The notes below the pieces were generated by a model that did no database searches, was not told where the DNA came from, and saw nothing but the letters and a program-made list of their open reading frames with translations. This document shows, piece by piece, positions 26,675 to 41,222 of a stretch of DNA of 41,222 nt (positions within the stretch are counted from its first letter, which is position 1; each line of letters starts with the position of its first letter). Origin of the DNA: Lachnospiraceae bacterium (GTDB taxonomy: Bacteria > Bacillota > Clostridia > Lachnospirales > Lachnospiraceae); assembly GCA_016282915.1 (NCBI GenBank), contig JAEELW010000092.1:1-41222 (forward strand), in the 5' to 3' direction. The position numbers and the translations under genes are program-made.

Positions 26675-27721
26675 TCACATCTCATCATTTCTCATATAGC
26701 GTGCATCTTTGTATGTTCCTATCTTTTTGATCTTTTTTTCTTTCAGCATTTTACTGAGAACCAGTTCAACTGTCTTCACGCTGATATCAGGTACTTTTTG
26801 TATAATGTCCTGTTTGGATACAGGAACGACAGCACCAAGCAGTATGCTTTCAACACGCTCTGATTTTTTTGCTTTTTTCAGGGATATGTCGGTAAATGCT
26901 CCGTCAAAATCTTTATAGCATCTGTACAGGATCTGCAAAAAATTGACGATGAAGGGCACATAATCATTTTTATTCTCATGCCATGATCCTGATGATGTAT
27001 GAAGGGCTTCATAATACACGTCCTTGTACTTGTTGATCTGAGCTTCGTATGAGATGTATCTGACGATATCGTACCCTGACAAATATAACAATAAGACCGT
27101 TAAAAGCCTTGAAACCCGCCCGTTTCCGTCGAGAAACGGATGTATACACAAAAAATCCAGTACGAAACAAGGGACCAGCATCAACGATGGGATCTCAGAA
27201 TCCTGTCTGGCATCATAGTATGCCAATAGCAATTGTTCCATGCTTTCCTGTACTTTTTTCGCGGGAACAGGTTTGAATCTCACATGTCTGTTTCCATCAG
27301 GACCATGCTCCATGATATAGTTATCTGTTTTCTTATATCGTCCGGCCTCCGAATGGTTCGTTTCTTCTATAGTTTTATGAAACAGGCAGATCACGTCTTC
27401 CGTCAGATCAAGATCCTCATATGTGTTATGGATCAGGTTTAAAGCATCTCTGTATCCGGAGATCTCCATTTCATCATGTGTTATGGGAAGGGCTCCGGCC
27501 ACAATGTCTCTTATTCTGTCATCCGTTGTAACTATACCTTCAATAGCATTACTGCCTTTTACGGATTCTATTATAGCCTTTTGCCTGAGGCTTTCAAATG
27601 TTTCACTGTATTGGAGTTTGCGAAATTCCTCCCTGGATCTCAGATCAGCTATAATATTAGTAAGACCGATTATGTTCCCCGGAACGGTATCTTTTAGAAA
27701 AGTATAGTCGAAAATATGCAT
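26675..27721 (-). CDS. Class II Fic protein (AMP-transferase) with C-terminal winged helix
   Basis: This 348-residue protein has a Fic_N region, then the Fic core with the complete active-site loop HPFLDGNGRVSR (His194). The inhibitory motif S-x-x-x-E-G is present at residues 57-62 (SNAIEG), upstream of the core, which defines an autoinhibited class II enzyme. The last 65 residues resemble a winged helix (SKQDIIQKVPDISVKTVELVLSKMLKE). It transfers AMP to a protein hydroxyl; the target is unknown. Start: ATG at 27721 behind GGGGAG; an upstream extension crosses the promoter. The winged helix may bind the palindrome in its promoter. Confidence 0.9.
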   Translation of the reverse strand: MHIFDYTFLKDTVPGNIIGLTNIIADLRSREEFRKLQYSETFESLRQKAIIESVKGSNAIEGIVTTDDRIRDIVAGALPITHDEMEISGYRDALNLIHNTYEDLDLTEDVICLFHKTIEETNHSEAGRYKKTDNYIMEHGPDGNRHVRFKPVPAKKVQESMEQLLLAYYDARQDSEIPSLMLVPCFVLDFLCIHPFLDGNGRVSRLLTVLLLYLSGYDIVRYISYEAQINKYKDVYYEALHTSSGSWHENKNDYVPFIVNFLQILYRCYKDFDGAFTDISLKKAKKSERVESILLGAVVPVSKQDIIQKVPDISVKTVELVLSKMLKEKKIKKIGTYKDARYMRNDEM

Positions 27722-27742
27722 AGCTGTCTCCCCAAAACACAA

Positions 27743-27783
27743 TTTACTACCCAAATAATATCATTTTTTAGGTAGTAAATCAA
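27743..27783 (-). promoter_or_regulatory. fic promoter with 9-bp inverted repeat operator
   Basis: On the minus strand TTGATT (27783-27778), a 17-base spacer and TATTAT (27760-27755) form a good sigma-A promoter. The inverted repeat TTTACTACC / GGTAGTAAA (27779-27771 and 27751-27743, 19 bases apart) straddles the -10, with its first arm touching the -35. This is a natural operator for a dimeric repressor, perhaps the Fic protein's own winged-helix domain. Confidence 0.7.
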
Positions 27784-31193: not shown

Positions 31194-31748
31194 CTAAACC
31201 ATCTTCTCCATATATTTCACCGGCACAGCCTTGATCAGCCACACACCGTTGACTGATCTGTAGAAAACATATCCGTCCCGACGCATCTCTCCGCTTCTGA
31301 TCCGGTAGATCAAGAGCTTCCCATGCCGTAGCCCCACCTTCCGCGCGGTCTCTTCATCCCCGGAAAGATGCACATACAGCCTGGACTTCGGTATCAGTCC
31401 CTCACGGTCAATAGCTTCCTCATCTTTCGTCGCCGTACCGGGGTAAAGGATCTCCGGAGGCTCTACCTGCTCAAGTTCCACATCAACCGGGATGGAATGC
31501 CCCTGGTTCGCCCGGATCAGCGTCTTATCCTCATTGAAGGAATAGCGCTGCTTTTCATCCCCGGCTACGATACGCTCCAGATCCGCCATGGTCAAAGGAT
31601 GCGTTTTGCTCACGCCGGCGATCAGCTCCGAAACCTCCGCCCATCCATGCTCATCAAGAGTGATCCCGATGGTTTCCGGCTTGTGACGAAGTATAAGGGA
31701 TATGAATTTACTCACATTTTTATCAGACATCATTATGTAACTATTCAT
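31194..31748 (-). CDS. kptA: RNA 2'-phosphotransferase
   Basis: This protein of about 184 residues belongs to the Tpt1/KptA family. Signatures: VSKFISLILRHKPETIGITLDEHGWA, then RYSFNEDKTLIRANQGHSIPVD, LYPGTATKDEEAIDREGL, SRLYVHLSGDEETARKVG, YRIRSGEM and NGVWLIKAVPVKY. The Arg-His and RANQGH residues that bind the RNA 2'-phosphate and NAD appear intact. It moves an internal 2'-phosphate from RNA to NAD, releasing ADP-ribose 1''-2''-cyclic phosphate. Start could be 31748, 31733 or 31730. A fragment of about 91% identity lies at 24385-24570. Confidence 0.92.
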   Translation of the reverse strand: MNSYIMMSDKNVSKFISLILRHKPETIGITLDEHGWAEVSELIAGVSKTHPLTMADLERIVAGDEKQRYSFNEDKTLIRANQGHSIPVDVELEQVEPPEILYPGTATKDEEAIDREGLIPKSRLYVHLSGDEETARKVGLRHGKLLIYRIRSGEMRRDGYVFYRSVNGVWLIKAVPVKYMEKMV

Positions 31749-31862
31749 CCATTTTCTCAAAATTGCTAGTTATATTACCTGTGCCATACAAGGCGTCTGA
31801 AATGAATATGTTGATACGAAGTTTTTCTTTTTCATTAAAATATCAATTTTGCACATATATAG

Positions 31863-34463
31863 TTATGACAACGAATACCACGCCGGTCTATGCTTGCTGG
31901 CTCTGCCGCCTTTTGCAGAAAAAGCAAATTTCATTCCTGCCTGCTTACACTTATCTATCAACGGCTTTCCCTCTGCCTCTCCGGCTATGATCCACAGGCA
32001 GCCTCCATTACTGCGCTTATCTGCGTATTCAAATCCCGAATCCTGAACCATACTAAGAATCGGATCTTTATTGGTATTCGTCCCAATTTTCTCGACAGTC
32101 ATCGACTTAGTTTCGGCCGGAGCGCTATACTCCATAATCGTTCTGAGACTCTCGCCGTTAAATGCCGTCATAAAGCTCTCCTGATACTTTTCTTCTACCC
32201 TATGACACCATCCGCTTTTATGTTTTAAAGCTTTTGAATCCTGAAAATAATCAAACTGACATCCAATTTCATTACTTTCGCGCAAAAAATCCTTAATCAA
32301 CTCATCATGTTTTGCCCCGGCTATCCAAAAACCTCCGCCACTCGGCACCTTATTTACCGGATTGATACAATATTCGCATAAAAGATCTCTGAGTTTACCA
32401 TAATCCGGTATCGGTTTGGGAGCATACTTAAAAGAAATATAGGGTTCTTGCGTACTTAATGTATATGTACCTTTTTCGCTGTCTGCCGTCCCATTTATCA
32501 GTAGATTTCTCATTACTATACTCTTCAGCGTCGGATGAGATCCCTTCCTTGCTTTGAATATCGGCCGAAATCCGCATTCTTTATTCACACAATAATAGGC
32601 ATCCGGATACTCTCTTACATAATTACCACAGACCGGGCAATTTCCGATATACATAGAATCTTTTATATGAGTATTTCCTTTTTCGGATGCAAACCGTATC
32701 ACATCGGCCGTTAGTTTCTTAATATCCTCCATAAATGTATTCGGTGAATACTTCCCTTTTCCGATTTGAGCAAGTTTTGCTTCCCATACACCGGTCATTT
32801 CCGGGGACTGTAAGACCTCCGGCAGAATACTTACCAACCGAATCCCATACTCTGTAGGATTTAATGCTCTCCCTTGCCGAACAACCATCTCTTTGTCGAT
32901 CAGCTTTTCAATCGTTGCTGCTCTGGTCGCCGGTGTTCCGATTCCATACTCCTCTTCCCGATCATCCTGGCTGTCTTCCGTTATTATTTTCCCGGCGTGT
33001 TCCATAGCAGTCAACAAAGACGCCTCTGTGTGAGGGGCCGGTGGTTTTGTAGTATCCTTACGAAGACGCATGGTTTCAACACTTATTTGATCACCTTCCG
33101 ATAAATCGGGCAGTTCCGGCGTTTTGTTTTTATTGCTCGTATCAACTACGCTCCATCCAGGATCTAAAACCTTTTCCCCGCTTGATACAAATATCCATCC
33201 ATCCACAGATACCTGCAATTTCTGCTTGAAAACATGCCTGTCCGGATAAAACATCGCTATAAATCTTCTACAGATTAGATCATAAATCTGCTTTTCCTGC
33301 TTTGTCCATTTATCCATACCCTTAGCTTCGCCGGTCGGAATAATCGCATGATGATCAGAAACGCCTGCGTTATTGATATATCTTCCGAATAAATCCTTTT
33401 CACTTTTCAAGGCAAAGGCAGCATAATCTTCCAGTTCTCCATTCTGTAGGTTTTCCAGTCTTTTTGCCAGGGTAGACTTGATATCCGATGACAGGAATCT
33501 TGAATCCGTTCGTGGATAAGTTATCGCCTTATGCTTCTCATATAGTGCCTGTGCAGTATCCAACGTCCATTGGGAAGACATGCCAAATAATCTATTAGCG
33601 TCTCTCTGGAGGGATGTCAGATCGTATAGAAGCAGTGACGCTTGTTTTTCCTCGTCAAGTTCATAAGAAATAATCTTTCCTTCCGATGAATGCTTCCTAA
33701 CCAACTGTTCCAGCTTATCTTTATTCTCTACCGGGAAACGTGACCATTCTTTCGTATCTTTGGCATTTTCGTTTAACAAGCGTCCATCGAAGCCCTTATA
33801 TGATACGATCACCTCATAATACTCCACCGGCACGAAATTCCGTCTTTCCAACTCCCGCTTCACAAGAATGGCTAATGTTGGAGACAAAACCCGCCCTACA
33901 GACAGACGTTTCATGTCATTCATAACGGCATATGCTCTGCTCGCATTCATGCCGATCAGCCAGTCCGCTTCAGACCGGCATCTTGCACTTTCGTACAGAT
34001 CATCATAATCCGAGTCCGGTTTAATATTCTCAAATCCTTCCTTGATAGCACGAAATGTAAGAGAAGATATCCATAAGCGATCCACAGGCTTCTTGCAGCC
34101 CGCCATTTTATAGATATATCTGAAAATGAGTTCACCTTCCCGCCCCGCATCCGTAGCACATACGATGCTGTCGACGATCGCATCATTCATCCATTTTTTT
34201 ATGATTTCAAATTGTTTTTGGCTGCTTTCAAGCACTTTCATCTGGAAGGGATCGGGAAAAATAGGCAGATCATCCATCTTCCAATCAGCATACTTCTGAT
34301 CCAATTCATCCGGATAGCATAAACCTACCAGATGGCCTACCGCCCATGTAACAATATCATTATCCCCTATACGGCAGCCTTCACCATTCTCTCTGCAGTT
34401 GAGCACATTAGCGATATCCCTGCCAACAGATGGTTTTTCTGCTACAATTAATCTTTTCCCCAT
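31863..34463 (-). CDS. topB: DNA topoisomerase III-like type IA topoisomerase
   Basis: This 866-residue protein has the TOPRIM start (RLIVAEKPSVGRDIANVL, then IVCATDAGREGELIFRYIY with acidic metal ligands). The active-site tyrosine is in KAITYPRTDSRFLSSDI, and VSDHHAIIPT and YGIGTPATRAATIEKLI are further type IA motifs. A Cys4 zinc finger follows (GNCPVCGNYV, YCVNKECGF, about residues 600-630), with further unfamiliar C-terminal repeats. It relaxes or decatenates single-strand-containing DNA. It is 54 bases behind the NERD helicase gene and probably in the same operon. Topoisomerases of this branch often ride on mobile elements. Confidence 0.92.
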   Translation of the reverse strand: MGKRLIVAEKPSVGRDIANVLNCRENGEGCRIGDNDIVTWAVGHLVGLCYPDELDQKYADWKMDDLPIFPDPFQMKVLESSQKQFEIIKKWMNDAIVDSIVCATDAGREGELIFRYIYKMAGCKKPVDRLWISSLTFRAIKEGFENIKPDSDYDDLYESARCRSEADWLIGMNASRAYAVMNDMKRLSVGRVLSPTLAILVKRELERRNFVPVEYYEVIVSYKGFDGRLLNENAKDTKEWSRFPVENKDKLEQLVRKHSSEGKIISYELDEEKQASLLLYDLTSLQRDANRLFGMSSQWTLDTAQALYEKHKAITYPRTDSRFLSSDIKSTLAKRLENLQNGELEDYAAFALKSEKDLFGRYINNAGVSDHHAIIPTGEAKGMDKWTKQEKQIYDLICRRFIAMFYPDRHVFKQKLQVSVDGWIFVSSGEKVLDPGWSVVDTSNKNKTPELPDLSEGDQISVETMRLRKDTTKPPAPHTEASLLTAMEHAGKIITEDSQDDREEEYGIGTPATRAATIEKLIDKEMVVRQGRALNPTEYGIRLVSILPEVLQSPEMTGVWEAKLAQIGKGKYSPNTFMEDIKKLTADVIRFASEKGNTHIKDSMYIGNCPVCGNYVREYPDAYYCVNKECGFRPIFKARKGSHPTLKSIVMRNLLINGTADSEKGTYTLSTQEPYISFKYAPKPIPDYGKLRDLLCEYCINPVNKVPSGGGFWIAGAKHDELIKDFLRESNEIGCQFDYFQDSKALKHKSGWCHRVEEKYQESFMTAFNGESLRTIMEYSAPAETKSMTVEKIGTNTNKDPILSMVQDSGFEYADKRSNGGCLWIIAGEAEGKPLIDKCKQAGMKFAFSAKGGRASKHRPAWYSLS

Positions 34464-34517
34464 GGCGACCTTCTACTTCTATATTAGATAAGCCAATAAT
34501 TCACTTAATCGTTACAA

Positions 34518-36377
34518 TCAATTCATTTCCGTATCCGCTGAAAATATACTGCTCAGAACCTTACGCATTTTATCATGATCATTTTTGATAGGCGCATCGG
34601 GATCAAGAGTCTTAATAACTTTCGCATACTCAGTAGGCGCTATCTGCACCACGAAATCGAGATAATGCTTTGCTCTGGAAGTCCCCACATAAAACTCCAA
34701 ACCCTTAAAACCAGTAAAGGAATCTTTATTTAATCCGATCATTGCAATGGCATCTGCTTCGAGCCCCTTAAACTTTATACAAGTTGTAACTCGATATGAA
34801 ACTCCATTGTAATCATACATATAAAATCCCGCGGTATCGCCTTCTCCCTGTGAGAGTTCATCCGCTATACAGCAAAACTCTATTTTCCCAGGAGTGAGAA
34901 TCACTACATCCTTTGCCTTTGCAGATTGGTACTTCTCCAATATTTCATTAAGAGCCTTAACTGCCTTTTTTTCACTACCTACCAGATGCATAACAGGTTT
35001 TACCGGTTCAAACCATGTACAGGCTGTTTTAGGTTTTATAGCTCTATTTTTATTATCTTTAAGCGGTGTAACTGATGTCTGAGCTATTTCTTTTGTATTT
35101 CTGCAATTATAGTGAAGCGACAATCTACAATCACTATTAGTTATACAATCGGGAAGCTTATACTCTACGCTTCCTCCCCCCTGTATCATTTGATATTTAT
35201 CATAAAAAAGATAGAATGTGCCTCCCGCCTCTAATACAACTTCTTGCAAAATATCTATAATTGAGCAGTTCTTTTCTGCTTCATCTGCTGCGATCCCAGC
35301 GTCTATAACACCAAAATCTTGTCCTTCATCAACGATAACATGCTTATATCCAAATTGTTCAGAATCGTCGAGACATCCAAGAAGCCACTCCAATAGCCCA
35401 TCATAATCTTTATAATTTCCGGTTTTTTCCTTCGCAAGCTGGGATATAGTCATAAAATCTACATTTTTGAACTGTTTTCTGTAGTTTTTTGATTCAGCTT
35501 TCTTATGAGTATCATTAAGGTGACTACAAAGTAGACGATTATAACAAAGAAATAGCACCTTTTCTTCATCAACACTGTTTCGCCTTGCCTTCTCTACTGC
35601 CAACATGGTTTTCCCTGTCCCAGCAGCTCCGTTTATTACAGCAGTATCTTGATCTTCTAGAAAATCGAGTAAACGATACTGCTCATAAAGCAATTGGTTC
35701 ATCTGTTCTTCAATCAAAATGCTTTTGCTGCTTGGCGATGGCACCAAATTGAACACAGGACAGAATACAGATTCGAGCAACATTTGGAACTCTTCACTGT
35801 TAATGTCAGTCTTAATACTTGTCTCCTCGTCAATCGGAATACTAATGCTGAAAATCTTCTCTATTGCTATAGTAGGATCTTTTAAATCCTCAGCGAACAT
35901 AGTGAGATCCATAATTGCATCTTCAGGCAATCCAGAGCTGTTCAGTTCTTCAAAATCTGCCTTTGCCATTCCAAAAAACCAAGCTGCATGTAGCATCTTA
36001 CATCTATATAAAACATTCTTTACTTCCTTGTTCGGATGCTCTTTCATATGCATTCTAAGAGCACGTTTCGCAGATGCAGCCTGATTATATGGACCATCGT
36101 GCTTCATGCGATCTCCATTTGTATAATGCCATGCTCTGTCATAATACTGGATTCCTTTGCCGTTTTTAGCTTCAATGCATAAAACACCCCTCCTCTGATT
36201 AACGACAACAAAATCTATTTCTCGCTCTATAAGCTTATGGTTCACTACATCATTAACTAATACACTGTGAAAGACATAATAATCTTCAGGAAGCTTTTTT
36301 AATGCATTAAAGACGACTTCCTCTTTACTCTTATCATCTATGTCCTTTGGCATAGGCGGTGTCATATGTGCAGGCAT
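34518..36377 (-). CDS. NERD nuclease domain fused to SF1 (UvrD/Rep-like) helicase
   Basis: This 619-residue protein starts with a NERD nuclease-related domain (about 15-130). The PD-(D/E)xK residues are present: Asp55 in REIDFVVVN, and Glu69 and Lys71 in LCIEAKNGK. The helicase part follows, with Walker A GAAGTGKT (250-257), Walker B VIVDEGQDFG, LHYNCRNTKEIA (motif IV-like), VTTCIKFKGLEADAI (motif V) and VGTSRAKHYL (motif VI). Both activities look intact. The ribosome site AAGGAGG overlaps the last codons of the upstream helicase gene, whose stop is 2 bases before this ATG, so the two are translationally coupled. A DNA-processing or defence role is inference. Confidence 0.88.
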   Translation of the reverse strand: MPAHMTPPMPKDIDDKSKEEVVFNALKKLPEDYYVFHSVLVNDVVNHKLIEREIDFVVVNQRRGVLCIEAKNGKGIQYYDRAWHYTNGDRMKHDGPYNQAASAKRALRMHMKEHPNKEVKNVLYRCKMLHAAWFFGMAKADFEELNSSGLPEDAIMDLTMFAEDLKDPTIAIEKIFSISIPIDEETSIKTDINSEEFQMLLESVFCPVFNLVPSPSSKSILIEEQMNQLLYEQYRLLDFLEDQDTAVINGAAGTGKTMLAVEKARRNSVDEEKVLFLCYNRLLCSHLNDTHKKAESKNYRKQFKNVDFMTISQLAKEKTGNYKDYDGLLEWLLGCLDDSEQFGYKHVIVDEGQDFGVIDAGIAADEAEKNCSIIDILQEVVLEAGGTFYLFYDKYQMIQGGGSVEYKLPDCITNSDCRLSLHYNCRNTKEIAQTSVTPLKDNKNRAIKPKTACTWFEPVKPVMHLVGSEKKAVKALNEILEKYQSAKAKDVVILTPGKIEFCCIADELSQGEGDTAGFYMYDYNGVSYRVTTCIKFKGLEADAIAMIGLNKDSFTGFKGLEFYVGTSRAKHYLDFVVQIAPTEYAKVIKTLDPDAPIKNDHDKMRKVLSSIFSADTEMN

Positions 36378-36379
36378 AA

Positions 36380-39300
36380 TTAGGCCTCCTTCCTGATATG
36401 GCTCAATACAGCTTCAGCATCTATACTTTCATAAACAATATAGCAATACCAGTCATACTTCCTTAAAATATCGTATTGTTTCATTGTCTCAGGCGTAAAT
36501 AATGCGACATGAGATTTTCCCCAGAAAAGCTCCGGCCATATATCCTTTTCCTTAGCAGGCAACTTCTCGTCGGATATTGGATTCTCGTATCCTCCATCCT
36601 TTGCGGCTAGCAATAACTTTTCAAATCCTGCCTTGATCTCATCGTCATCTGCACTATCCCTTAACGATTCCAGCTGAGTAACAGTATCCGGATAAGAAGA
36701 TGTATCCGGAACGTCATATGCAAACGTCTTTGATCCACGTTCCTCCTTCCCAGGCTCCCTCACCGATACTGGTTGATCCTTTTTCGGCTGTGGAATTACT
36801 TCACAATCTAGCAGCCAGCTTATGTATTCATGAGCCAGACCTCTTGAAATCTGATCATGAAAATACTGGTTGGAGTAGTTGCGAAGACATCCATAGCAAG
36901 ATGTCTCCCGAGTACACCCACATTTTCCAGAAACCTTGTTCCTTGCCTCTCGCAGCACCTTATCGAAATTTTTATAAATGTGCTTTACAAATCCGGAACC
37001 ACCTGCTGTATCATCGAACAGGACTATCTCCTGATTCTCCGTTACACATCCACTGATGTCATCTCTGCTGATGTCCAATGCTTTGCTTGCGCCTTCAAGG
37101 ATCGCGTACAAAACCGAAAGGTACTGATTTTTCTCCTCTATGCCATCAACATCGTTCAAGCGAACACCATGTTTAGGCAAAGATATTTTTAGAATATCTG
37201 TCGAGAAAACATGTCCCAGTGAAGCCCGGATAAACCTCTTGCTTCCGCATATCTTCTTATATTTCGTTTCATGTTTATTACCCTTAAGGATAGTGATAGG
37301 ATCCTTTGCATATCCGCAGCTTGGACATATATACAATCCGCGTCCATTCATGCCCTGATTCAAGACAAAAAGCTTTCCCCCTGGTGAATATGTAATACCT
37401 ACTTCTTTCCCTTTCAATACCAACTTTCTGTCTTCTGCTTCAGCTTTCTGCTTCTCGGTCAATCCCTCCGTTCCCCAAAATTGAGTTTGAGTCGTATAGT
37501 AGGTGCGGGGCCGCGATTCCCCCACCCGTTTAGGCTTGTATTCCATCTGCGTAGAAAAACCAAACAAGGGAATAACGAATATTCTCGGTTCCATCAATGT
37601 ATTGCAGAAGTCACAAACCTTCTTCGGCTCTTCCTCAAGATTCGTGGTCACATCAACCATGTGTCCTTCCGGATGATATATCTTTTTACACTTAGGACAC
37701 TCATGATAAACATATGAAGGCCAGCCTTTATCCGGTATCGTATTAATTGCATAGCTCTCCCAAATCTTGCCGTTCGCTACAATTTGGGCAGGAGGGGCAA
37801 ATTCACTGATAGCCATCTTTAGATCCCTTGAGAGATCGATCTTTTTTGATTCCTCCTCCGATCCACCGAGAATATCAAGCGATACAGTGTCAATAGGAAA
37901 TCCATATTTGGGCAAAACTCCCTTTGCACTTAGAAAATTTATAGACGGCTCATCTTCCAAAGTTGCTATCAGCTTTTCTGCCGCTATCGCTCTCCCAAGT
38001 CCTCTTACCGTATTTCCATCGTCTCCAAGTTCGCTTTTTATTTCCGCCGAGAATTTCCTAAGTCCGTCTATGTCCGCAGTTCGTTCGGCGATAGCCCTTG
38101 TTAGTGATCCTTCTTCTCCTGTTAGATCTTTAATAAATTTCCAATCATCCACCCCGAGAATTATGCATATATCATTTGGAATAACTGAATGGATGCTCTC
38201 AAGCAATTCCTTCGGATGCTCGGAAAGAGCCCTCTGCAATTCCTTTGACATGTTTTTTTCTTCATTATATGAAACGATCTTCTCCGTGTTTCCCACAAAA
38301 TACTCAGGAAATCTTTTGAAAAACCATGAAATCACTATAGAATTTAGGTGCCTTTCAGCAATCTTCTCATTATCAATTTCAAGAATCGGCGGAATAATCT
38401 TTCCCGCAATTATCTGAGCCGGGTCATGATAAAATGTCATATCATGGCTATTTCTTCGAGAGAATGTGACCGAAAACGCGGCAGATGAGGTACGTCTGCC
38501 TGCGCGTCCTGCTCTCTGTATATAGTTTGATGTCTCAGGCGGTACGTTCCTTTGAAAAGTTGCTTCCAGTTCGCCTACATCGACCCCCATCTCAAATGTA
38601 GTTGAACAACTGAGGACATTTATTCTGCCCTCTTCAAAATCCTTCTGATACTCCCCGGCAGTTTTGGAGGAAAGCTGGGCGGTATGCTCACGTGATACCA
38701 TAGGAATGATCTTGCTATCAGCAAACAAATTATTATAATACGGCTCATCCTTTAGCTCAGATGCCTGTACTTCTACAAGCCTACCATCACATTTCATCTC
38801 CGGACAAATCCCTTTTATTGAATAGCCGTATATTTTTCCGCATTTTCTACATCTAAAAAGAGTATCTCCATCATTTACGTAATGAAAATTCCATTTAGCA
38901 TAGTTTAATTGGTAAACTGTTCCTTTTGAGGAAGCTGCACTGTCTATTACATATTTTTTTGCTATTAATCTAAGAAGAAGTTGATATATAAGTATCAGGT
39001 TCTCTCGTGCAAGCTTATTCTTTGAATCCTCATCTAAGGAAGGATCATCAATAAGCTTCTTCATAAGCGCTAACCTCTTATTAACTCGCCCATCATCCGG
39101 AATGAATCCATACACATGGCTCCCCCTGTCTAGGCTTGTCCCTGTCTGTCTGAAATAACCCGAATGATTTCTCGGTTCAAAAAAGTCATTTGTCGCTCGT
39201 ATATTCTCCGGAAAACTTGTTGCCCCTTTTTGCCGGAGCGTATCCATAACAAAACGTAGAAGATTCCACAGATCCTTTCCATTTAAACCTGCAATCTCAA

Positions 39301-41222
39301 GGTTGCTCTTAAATGCCTGCTCTTCGGGGGATATTTGAACATAACCAAGTCCTTCCAGCCCCGTCTCGATATCCGGGCTTATAAACTCCTGCATAACATA
39401 TAAGGCCGCCATTTCAAGCTTCTGATAGTCAGTAAGATCAGCCTTTCTTTCTTGGTCAAATGTATATAGCCCCGATCTGTCTGCTTCATCACGAGCTCTC
39501 TTTACCAGATCGCCTACGCATAAAGTTCCATTATCAGCATCTTTCAAACACTTGAGAATAATCTTTCTCCACATAATCAACGCATACTTATTCTCAAAGA
39601 AACCGGCAAAGAATGCAGCTTCCTGTCTGTTATCCGAGAAAACCAACAGCTTACGTCCACTTTCATCAGCCAGAGTAGCAGCAAGAGTGGTATCCGTTGT
39701 TTCAGAAAAAGGATCATCTCCAAAAATGTCATCTCCAAAGATATCATCGTCAAAAATATCGTTACTTTTCGAACTGATTGGTCTCGGAGGAATTGCATCA
39801 TAAAGGCTTTTTGCAACTGCAAAGGTTGCAGGTTGATTCGCCGTAAGGAAACGTTTTATAAGTCCCTTCTTGGTTGCACCACAGCAGGGACAACAATTTG
39901 ATTCATTATCTTTCCCACGATATTTTAAGTTATAAACAGTAACTATCTTTTTGGAGCCTGAAACATCACAGCAATTTGCCGGATGGATCTGTGCAAATGG
40001 AGTTATTCGTCCACAACACAGACATAAATGGAATTTCTCAAGGTCAGAGATCTTACTCGTTCCCTCAAGCGAATCATCCTCATCAAGTCCCGTCAGGTCA
40101 CTTTCGTTTTCGCCATTCGAAATGAAATAGAATTCCGGTTTTTCAAGACTGCTTGTCTGTACAAAATAACGATTTCCACCATTTTCTATTGTTTTTCCAA
40201 CAAGGTATTCCTGTGTACATTTCTGACAATTTGCCAGTTCAAACACGGAATATGCTCTGTTCCCTGACCATGCTTTCTCCTTACGGTCAAGATAAACTAT
40301 CTTTTGAGGATAATACTGAACAAACATCCCCTCTAAAGACTTAACAAACAGATGGTAACGTGCCGGCAAAAGAGCCGACTCATATTCACTCTTTTTCGCA
40401 GCTGCAGAAAGTTCAATCAAATCAATTAGTGCAGCCTCTCCTTCTCTAGGTGATAAATCCTCAAATACTTTGCTCGCAACATCTTCTATTTTTTTCGGCT
40501 TACTCTTTAATGCATCATATACTCTGAATAATCGCAAATCCTTTGACAGAGCTTCATATAATACTGCCCCCTTTTTATTATCATCCAAATCCTTAGTTTT
40601 ATTCTTAAGTTTCTTATACTCTTCAGGTGCAAATAGTCTGGATCCATTTTCCGGCTCTCGATCAACCCTCTTGGTAGTTATCACATCCTCAGCAGTAAAA
40701 GGTTCATCAAAAAGGGCATGTGCAAAACGCGCCAATCCATCCTTTCCATCTTCACTCCCCAAAGTAGCCGATGTAGCTATACATCTGAAATCCTTGTCCA
40801 TATTATGGCGGATTCTCTCTTTTACTCTTCTCAGAAGATAGGCGATTTCAGTCCCATTTGCCCCTTTATAGGTGTGCGCTTCATCGATTACAATAAATCT
40901 CCAATTTTTTGCAGACGGGTTATCAAAGAACGGCGCTGTGTCCGGTCGTAACAGCATGTATTCCAACATAGCATAGTTTGTCAACAAGATGTGCGGTGGT
41001 TTCTCCGCCATCATATCCCTACTCATAATCTCGTTTGGTATAGATTTTTTATATGCTTCATCCGTATCGACCATATGACTATCATCATACTCTTGATGAA
41101 GCCTTTTCTCTGCCTCCTCAGCCGTTTCTTTTATATTCTTCCAGGGAGCTTCAGCCGTATATCGGCCAAACGTGATATCCGGATAGTTTTTTAACAGCTT
41201 TCTAAGTTTCTTCTGCTGGTCG
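36380..41222 (-). CDS. Giant DEAH-box helicase with C-terminal DUF1998-type cysteine domain (5' end beyond window)
   Basis: At least 1,613 residues are visible and the frame stays open to the window edge; an internal ATG at 41074 is not the real start, because the upstream codons continue helicase motif Ia-type sequence (DITFGRYT). Motifs: LLTNYAMLEYMLLRP, VIDEAHTYKG (motif II), CIATSATLGS (III), SCSTTFEMGVDVGEL (V) and IQRAGRAGRR (VI). Many zinc-knuckle pairs lie between. The C-terminus has DDTAGGSGF and CGCTRETSCYGCLRNY, the DUF1998/MZB cysteine cluster known from MrfA and from very large helicases such as Druantia DruE. About 110 further residues follow. Walker A must lie outside the window. 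Confidence 0.88.
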   Translation of the reverse strand, partial: DQQKKLRKLLKNYPDITFGRYTAEAPWKNIKETAEEAEKRLHQEYDDSHMVDTDEAYKKSIPNEIMSRDMMAEKPPHILLTNYAMLEYMLLRPDTAPFFDNPSAKNWRFIVIDEAHTYKGANGTEIAYLLRRVKERIRHNMDKDFRCIATSATLGSEDGKDGLARFAHALFDEPFTAEDVITTKRVDREPENGSRLFAPEEYKKLKNKTKDLDDNKKGAVLYEALSKDLRLFRVYDALKSKPKKIEDVASKVFEDLSPREGEAALIDLIELSAAAKKSEYESALLPARYHLFVKSLEGMFVQYYPQKIVYLDRKEKAWSGNRAYSVFELANCQKCTQEYLVGKTIENGGNRYFVQTSSLEKPEFYFISNGENESDLTGLDEDDSLEGTSKISDLEKFHLCLCCGRITPFAQIHPANCCDVSGSKKIVTVYNLKYRGKDNESNCCPCCGATKKGLIKRFLTANQPATFAVAKSLYDAIPPRPISSKSNDIFDDDIFGDDIFGDDPFSETTDTTLAATLADESGRKLLVFSDNRQEAAFFAGFFENKYALIMWRKIILKCLKDADNGTLCVGDLVKRARDEADRSGLYTFDQERKADLTDYQKLEMAALYVMQEFISPDIETGLEGLGYVQISPEEQAFKSNLEIAGLNGKDLWNLLRFVMDTLRQKGATSFPENIRATNDFFEPRNHSGYFRQTGTSLDRGSHVYGFIPDDGRVNKRLALMKKLIDDPSLDEDSKNKLARENLILIYQLLLRLIAKKYVIDSAASSKGTVYQLNYAKWNFHYVNDGDTLFRCRKCGKIYGYSIKGICPEMKCDGRLVEVQASELKDEPYYNNLFADSKIIPMVSREHTAQLSSKTAGEYQKDFEEGRINVLSCSTTFEMGVDVGELEATFQRNVPPETSNYIQRAGRAGRRTSSAAFSVTFSRRNSHDMTFYHDPAQIIAGKIIPPILEIDNEKIAERHLNSIVISWFFKRFPEYFVGNTEKIVSYNEEKNMSKELQRALSEHPKELLESIHSVIPNDICIILGVDDWKFIKDLTGEEGSLTRAIAERTADIDGLRKFSAEIKSELGDDGNTVRGLGRAIAAEKLIATLEDEPSINFLSAKGVLPKYGFPIDTVSLDILGGSEEESKKIDLSRDLKMAISEFAPPAQIVANGKIWESYAINTIPDKGWPSYVYHECPKCKKIYHPEGHMVDVTTNLEEEPKKVCDFCNTLMEPRIFVIPLFGFSTQMEYKPKRVGESRPRTYYTTQTQFWGTEGLTEKQKAEAEDRKLVLKGKEVGITYSPGGKLFVLNQGMNGRGLYICPSCGYAKDPITILKGNKHETKYKKICGSKRFIRASLGHVFSTDILKISLPKHGVRLNDVDGIEEKNQYLSVLYAILEGASKALDISRDDISGCVTENQEIVLFDDTAGGSGFVKHIYKNFDKVLREARNKVSGKCGCTRETSCYGCLRNYSNQYFHDQISRGLAHEYISWLLDCEVIPQPKKDQPVSVREPGKEERGSKTFAYDVPDTSSYPDTVTQLESLRDSADDDEIKAGFEKLLLAAKDGGYENPISDEKLPAKEKDIWPELFWGKSHVALFTPETMKQYDILRKYDWYCYIVYESIDAEAVLSHIRKEA
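39714..39758 (-). repeat. Three copies of a 15-base repeat encoding DDIFG-type units
   Basis: Three head-to-tail 15-base units (39714-39728, 39729-39743, 39744-39758) lie in the helicase gene and encode a short acidic run of DDIFG-like pentapeptides. Units two and three differ from the first at a few bases. The repeat sits in a linker between the zinc knuckles and the ESGRKLLVFSDNRQ block, so gain or loss of units would keep the frame. Confidence 0.85.

Follow-up and report, generated by a model that had tools for sequence, protein, structure and literature searches.

What kind of system, if any, is formed by a very large helicase, a nuclease-helicase and a topoisomerase whose genes follow one another at the end of a Lachnospiraceae contig? 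The stretch analysed here (the window, 41,222 nucleotides) is the entire contig C130 of a 3.85-Mb genome (G000). The three genes all lie on the minus strand and fill positions 31863-41222, a segment with a GC content of 41.3% compared to 47.8% in the remainder of the window. A sequence-only reading had reported this arrangement correctly: the stop codon of gene 1 lies 2 bases ahead of the ATG of gene 2, the overlapping ribosome site (AGGAAGGAGG) is located within the last codons of gene 1, and 54 bases separate gene 2 from gene 3. It had also interpreted the trio as a DNA-surveillance or anti-phage module to which the topoisomerase belonged integrally. The DUF1998 helicase and the nuclease-helicase retain their place in such a module, by family matches and by recurrence of the pair, while the topoisomerase loses it. 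The identity of gene 1 as a DruE, the large gene that precedes it and the tail at its C-terminus did not figure in that reading.

Gene 1 (36380-41221, minus strand) encodes 1613 residues of a DruE-type YprA helicase, and its 5' end is open because the contig stops at 41222. Pfam identifies MZB (the DUF1998 region), Helicase_C and DEAD domains, the last two being SF2 helicase domains, and the earlier description as a giant DUF1998 helicase is thus borne out. The best PADLOC match is DruE1 (1e-145), followed by DruE3 (6e-136), so that the helicase of Druantia is present in the window, and the protein is 66-71% identical to the DruE of three related loci (L106, L107 and L039). It is a DruE in one piece; the match to DrmA reaches just 4e-10, and the separate DrmA and DrmB of DISARM are absent. 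A scan with general Pfam models found no PLD domain. The MZB domain is common to MrfA and YprA, and its match in gene 1 could be taken to indicate a DNA-repair operon of the MrfA/YprA kind, equipped with a nuclease-helicase and TopB and unconnected with defence. We regard this as highly improbable, given that the best matches are DruE models, that the protein encoded upstream in relatives is Ig-like, that the distribution is sporadic and that the cassette described below has relatives in DISARM.

Gene 2 (34518-36377, minus strand; 619 residues) combines a NERD domain (Pfam, 8e-14) with an SF1-type helicase and matches the PADLOC model RTasNERD-Hel (6e-37). The nuclease had been said to have intact catalytic residues, and D55, E69 and K71, assigned to the motif by reading, are indeed present; they are common to the three aligned relatives that keep the NERD domain, the fourth, L039, lacking its start. 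The NERD gene was found in none of the 34 same-genus genomes searched. The protein has no relative in viral contigs, one in phages (25% identity) and 15 in plasmid records, all below 60% identity; no DruE is annotated in the one plasmid neighbourhood considered, from Selenomonas. Outside the window, the arrangement of DruE followed directly by NERD-SF1 recurs in at least 20 distinct loci, mostly with only a few bases between the two genes. These loci come from searches for DruE in 391 genomes of the class (28 genomes including that of the window, with the best loci taken from 14 of the 27 others), for NERD-SF1 in 398 genomes of the phylum, and from one contig scan that confirmed 373 loci, of which the 80 best were kept; a second DruE search yielded 37 genomes including that of the window, all of which were covered. 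Elsewhere, DruE mostly lacks a NERD partner, and none was found in 35 further DruE regions. Judged from the recurrence of the pair, gene 2 is a true operon partner of DruE. NERD-SF1 also stands without a DruE, DrmB or C3a193 neighbour in 61 of the 102 rows of its tree. Three Saccharibacteria loci (L130, L138 and L141) in the same half of the tree have NERD-SF1 with no DruE or DrmB upstream, and carry genes of 1257-1281 residues a few kb downstream of it.

Gene 3 (31863-34463, minus strand; 866 residues) is a DNA topoisomerase III (NCBIfam PRK07726, 665.6 bits with a cut-off of 597) with about 227 extra C-terminal residues (31863-32546, minus strand). A three-gene machine can be envisaged, in which the helicases would load the DNA, the topoisomerase would pass strands and NERD would cut; the shared strand, the 54-base gap and the similarly low GC content are consistent with it, as are the rarity of the C-terminal extension and its resemblance to the ends of conflict-type proteins. 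However, none of the 20 listed loci with DruE and NERD-SF1 shows a TopB homologue (16 of them with at least 2.6 kb of downstream sequence, and flanks of at most 10 kb), which argues against an integral role, and the one other TopB found with this extension follows a different gene. Co-occurrence with the helicase, on which the sequence-only reading had let its proposal depend, is therefore found for NERD, and for topB in no other locus with DruE and NERD-SF1. We consider the three-gene machine very unlikely; the topoisomerase is probably an island neighbour only. A BLAST search with TopB over 149 fetched loci returned one distant match, in L184, where no DruE was found.

The TopB core is widespread, with homologues at 1e-60 in 127 of 144 relatives. 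The extension occurs in full only in the genome of the window and in G043 (2 of 397 family genomes), its last part alone in two, and no relative of it was found in viral contigs or plasmids. The G043 protein, 67% identical and with the same extension, is encoded on a 3.3-kb contig behind a gene whose plasmid homologue is annotated as DUF262. Within the extension, two stretches of about 65 residues are similar to each other, and the second, at the very end, resembles the end of a 1714-residue open frame in another genome (G1159) and, weakly, that of a ZorC model; the last part of that frame carries AAA_12 and MTES_1575 nuclease domains. These similarities suggest that the TopB of the window may belong to some conflict system, without a tie to the DruE operon. 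A Tpt1/KptA RNA 2'-phosphotransferase is encoded at 31194-31760, 102 bases behind the topoisomerase, and a Fic/DOC-domain protein at 26675-27754, some 4 kb beyond it.

On the other side of DruE, a large gene of 911-1208 or more codons precedes the helicase in all 16 pair loci with enough contig; in L039, L106 and L107 this gene (1205-1217 residues) runs a few bases into the start of DruE. The genome of the window contains the first 251 residues of such a gene (52-57% identical), which runs off the end of contig C9. Comparison with L106 indicates that about 3.3 kb are unassembled between C9 and C130, and we infer that the two are neighbouring contigs. Transposase-like fragments (IS66 type, as judged by eye) and an HNH_4 protein lie upstream of the partial Ig-type gene on C9 (L217). 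A model of the corresponding protein from L109 displays a low-confidence helical start and a long array of strands (pLDDT 69, pTM 0.43), and the 50 matches listed by Foldseek are mostly tandem Ig or fibronectin domains; DruH (9tud) is not among them. Ten upstream proteins of relatives gave no match to the DruH model, and the hhalign probability to DruH was 0.1-1.3%, that is, there is no recognisable sequence kinship. For DruH itself, three Ig-like domains are described, and Druantia III probably uses it as its sensor (PMC13192584). With its tandem Ig-like domains, as modelled, the upstream protein is a probable sensor as well.

The C-terminus of DruE distinguishes the helicases that are followed by NERD-SF1. 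In these, where the zinc motif can be located, 149-185 residues extend beyond it, whereas DruEs without NERD-SF1 end 31-59 residues from the motif, with the exception of L045. In the window, this tail comprises residues 1465-1613 (36383-36829, minus strand). Among 40 loci selected by DruE, six have both tail and SF1 partner, one has the tail only (L045), none the partner only and 33 have neither (Fisher test, 1.8e-6, kinship ignored); 'no SF1' here denotes no match to the NERD profile or to the RelE-SF1 protein, and other helicases are possible. Six of the 46 DruE-selected rows had been set aside, namely three truncated DruEs, two without downstream sequence and L039, whose sequence is broken before its tail. 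Phylogenetically independent pairs on the tree agree in five of five cases (p = 0.0625), and in six of six with outgroups (p = 0.031), a borderline result. Tree rows with NERD-SF1 were taken as tailed, L128 on the basis of its length and 9.6 bits and L139 by an iterated profile, and the partial loci L052, L277, L279, L281 and L285 were left out of the tree. A blind case is provided by L254, the sole tail among the 35 further DruE regions: its next gene is a RelE/ParE-type UvrD helicase in two frames, like that of L040. The new finding is this C-terminal tail, present on DruEs that have an SF1 partner and absent from partnerless ones other than L045.

The predicted structure of the tail (pLDDT 86, pTM 0.75) consists of helices and a small sheet. 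A Foldseek search returned 68 matches, none at 0.001; among the eight top rows, six are proteins that resemble restriction endonucleases (PvuRts1I, AbaSI, Vsr and another), with E values of 0.24-1.6 that are not significant. Compared to the PDB sequences, the tail gave one match (E = 1.1), which is not meaningful. No acid-x-lysine pair is seen when the tail alignment is read by eye, and on this basis we call the domain apparently dead: as modelled, the tail is nuclease-like but seems inactive. The sequence comparisons lead us to propose that it would dock the SF1 nuclease-helicase effector. Alternatively, the tail could be a leftover, or an active regulatory or DNA-binding domain, that has only its ancestry in common with the operon and does not bind the SF1 protein, their co-occurrence resulting from inheritance of the whole operon end. 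Tail and NERD gene are adjacent and could move as one piece of DNA, the pair test is borderline, and a related domain occurs in ZorE with no SF1 gene adjoining (see below). This alternative is nevertheless unlikely, if still a serious contender, as the tail is missing from all 33 DruEs judged to lack a partner and is retained in L040 and L254 with an SF1 partner of a different type (RelE).

The tail is not confined to DruE. An iterated tail profile found 34 matches among the 1569 ORFs of the loci fetched. Subtracting two double fetches leaves 32 distinct loci, and 31 of these have NERD-SF1 directly downstream. The 31 tails are carried by 18 DruEs, 8 DrmB-like proteins, 2 DruEs of the Druantia IV type and 3 DEAD helicases. 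L110 is a DISARM locus (DrmA 4e-212, DrmB 9e-80, DrmE_C), L125 encodes DruE4 with DruL4, and L133 encodes C3a193 ('poss. alt. Cas3'). In all three, the tail lies beyond the stretch covered by the family model; no positions of the DrmB and C3a193 models remain at that point, and 79 positions of the DruE4 model do. Hosts were typed with PADLOC and Pfam in these three loci, with Pfam in L118 and L147, and by DruL only in L113. Typing of the remaining six DrmB-like loci with a tail, and of L149, relied on gene order, size and the match to the tail. The NERD-SF1 tree requires four or more changes on starred branches for the DruE context and as many for the DrmB context, and we therefore conclude that partners have been exchanged between systems. 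Tail similarity tracks NERD similarity across different hosts (rho = 0.76, p = 0.0005; 32 loci, 293 pairs), a correlation that may owe something to the relatedness of the organisms. A strict dependence is spoken against by six loci, elsewhere in the tree, in which NERD-SF1 stands behind a tail-less end that is DrmB-like by its C-terminal letters. In L112, a gene for an HpaII-type restriction endonuclease (138-1217) lies ahead of a DISARM-like operon with tail and NERD-SF1.

A related arrangement may exist in ARMADA II. ArmC, examined in an E. coli plasmid array (L219, L290), matches the tail profile weakly with residues 2019-2095 of 2113 (10.0 bits, hhalign probability 78%), and DruE3 of the same array, which is without an SF1 partner, does not match it. 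Among 1931 background ORFs, 8 bits are reached by five proteins without the tail. Four of them have the gene of an SF1 partner immediately behind theirs; the fifth, which is unrelated, scores 9.9 bits, which places the ArmC match at the edge of noise, and its assignment rests also on position. ArmD is 32% identical over 700 residues to the RelE-SF1 partner in L040; according to the ARMADA study (PMC12458937), it is a RelE-UvrD fusion and essential in ARMADA II. In the same Zorya-Druantia-ARMADA array, the end of ZorE (PADLOC ZorE2) is 40% identical over 57 residues to that of ArmC (L219:2360-3463 and L290:8850-15191, respectively). No SF1 gene is listed beside ZorE, so the family of tail-related domains is not confined to proteins with SF1 partners. 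The likeness of the two ends might bear on the reported synergy of Zorya, Druantia and ARMADA.

Taken together, we favour, at somewhat better than even chances, a Druantia-III-like anti-phage operon in which gene 1 takes the second place and gene 2 the third, with a DruE tail that docks an SF1 protein whose NERD domain cuts, and with tail and partner forming a transferable cassette. Alongside the gene order, the co-occurrence and co-variation of tail and partner and the NERD residues, all directly observed, we infer a docking, a sensing step, a division of labour, an order of events and a phage range for this operon. The upstream Ig-like protein would sense infection, and DruE would engage DNA with exposed single strands, as shown for E. 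coli DruE (PMC13192584). Having no visible active nuclease in this clade, DruE would present the DNA to NERD-SF1, which, held on the dead-looking nuclease-like tail, would translocate and cut with its NERD domain. Experiment comes nearest to supporting such a mechanism in ARMADA II, where ArmD is essential (PMC12458937). Tail and SF1 partner would constitute a cassette that has become attached to several YprA/DUF1998 hubs. The broader generalization, to which we give a little less than an even chance, is that a portable docking domain on YprA/DUF1998 ends recruits interchangeable NERD or RelE SF1 nuclease-helicases, and that Druantia-like systems, DISARM and ARMADA share a plug and socket. Three widespread defence families have DruE, DrmB and ArmC as their hubs. 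For the question of how these hubs come by a nuclease, a shared tail predictive of an SF1 partner would, if true, supply a testable interaction rule; it would also show where Druantia III-like systems without a nuclease of their own have the missing one, and serve as a marker for finding further members.

The sequence-only reading had named no described system of this composition, and this assessment holds: there is no exact match, and no DruH was recognised in the gene that precedes DruE. In the portions of the literature searched, no mention of NERD-SF1 with DruE or DrmB was found, and Druantia and NERD were mentioned together only in PMC12458937 and PMC10952713. As far as the available text of Bell et al. 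(PMC12458937) goes, NERD is named only for TALON, helicases of the Druantia III-like branch are most often without a nuclease domain, and those of Druantia I/II and some of ARMADA II end in inactivated Vsr domains. As in Druantia III, relatives of the window have a DruE-type helicase directly behind a large gene, and the upstream protein is Ig-like, as is DruH (PMC13192584). The operon differs in that the upstream protein has no sequence kinship to DruH (compared in relatives, the window's own being the 251-residue piece), that the DruE of the window, for which Pfam reported no PLD domain, appears to have the tail where PLD nuclease domains would stand, and that NERD-SF1 is added as a third gene. 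PADLOC C3a187 (NERD + UvrD) and RTasNERD-Hel have the same architecture as gene 2, but these labels refer to CRISPR accessory genes or reverse transcriptases; neither is seen in the window, and a Pfam scan of 15 window ORFs found no reverse transcriptase. TALON likewise joins a YprA helicase with a NERD nuclease (PMC12458937), but the TPR-CSD and TBP genes that define it did not turn up in the same Pfam scan of 15 window ORFs, whatever precedes DruE being off the contig. From ARMADA II, the operon differs in having no counterparts of ArmA and ArmB among the genes seen, the DruE of relatives being flanked by the Ig-like gene and NERD-SF1, and in carrying NERD where ArmD has RelE, a type also found in the relatives L040 and L254. 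The two nevertheless share the succession of a YprA helicase and an SF1 helicase with an N-terminal nuclease or toxin-like domain, and ArmC ends in a weakly matching tail. Compared to DISARM, the window has a one-piece DruE in place of DrmA plus DrmB, yet it is with the same tail and NERD-SF1 that DISARM-like operons such as L110 end.
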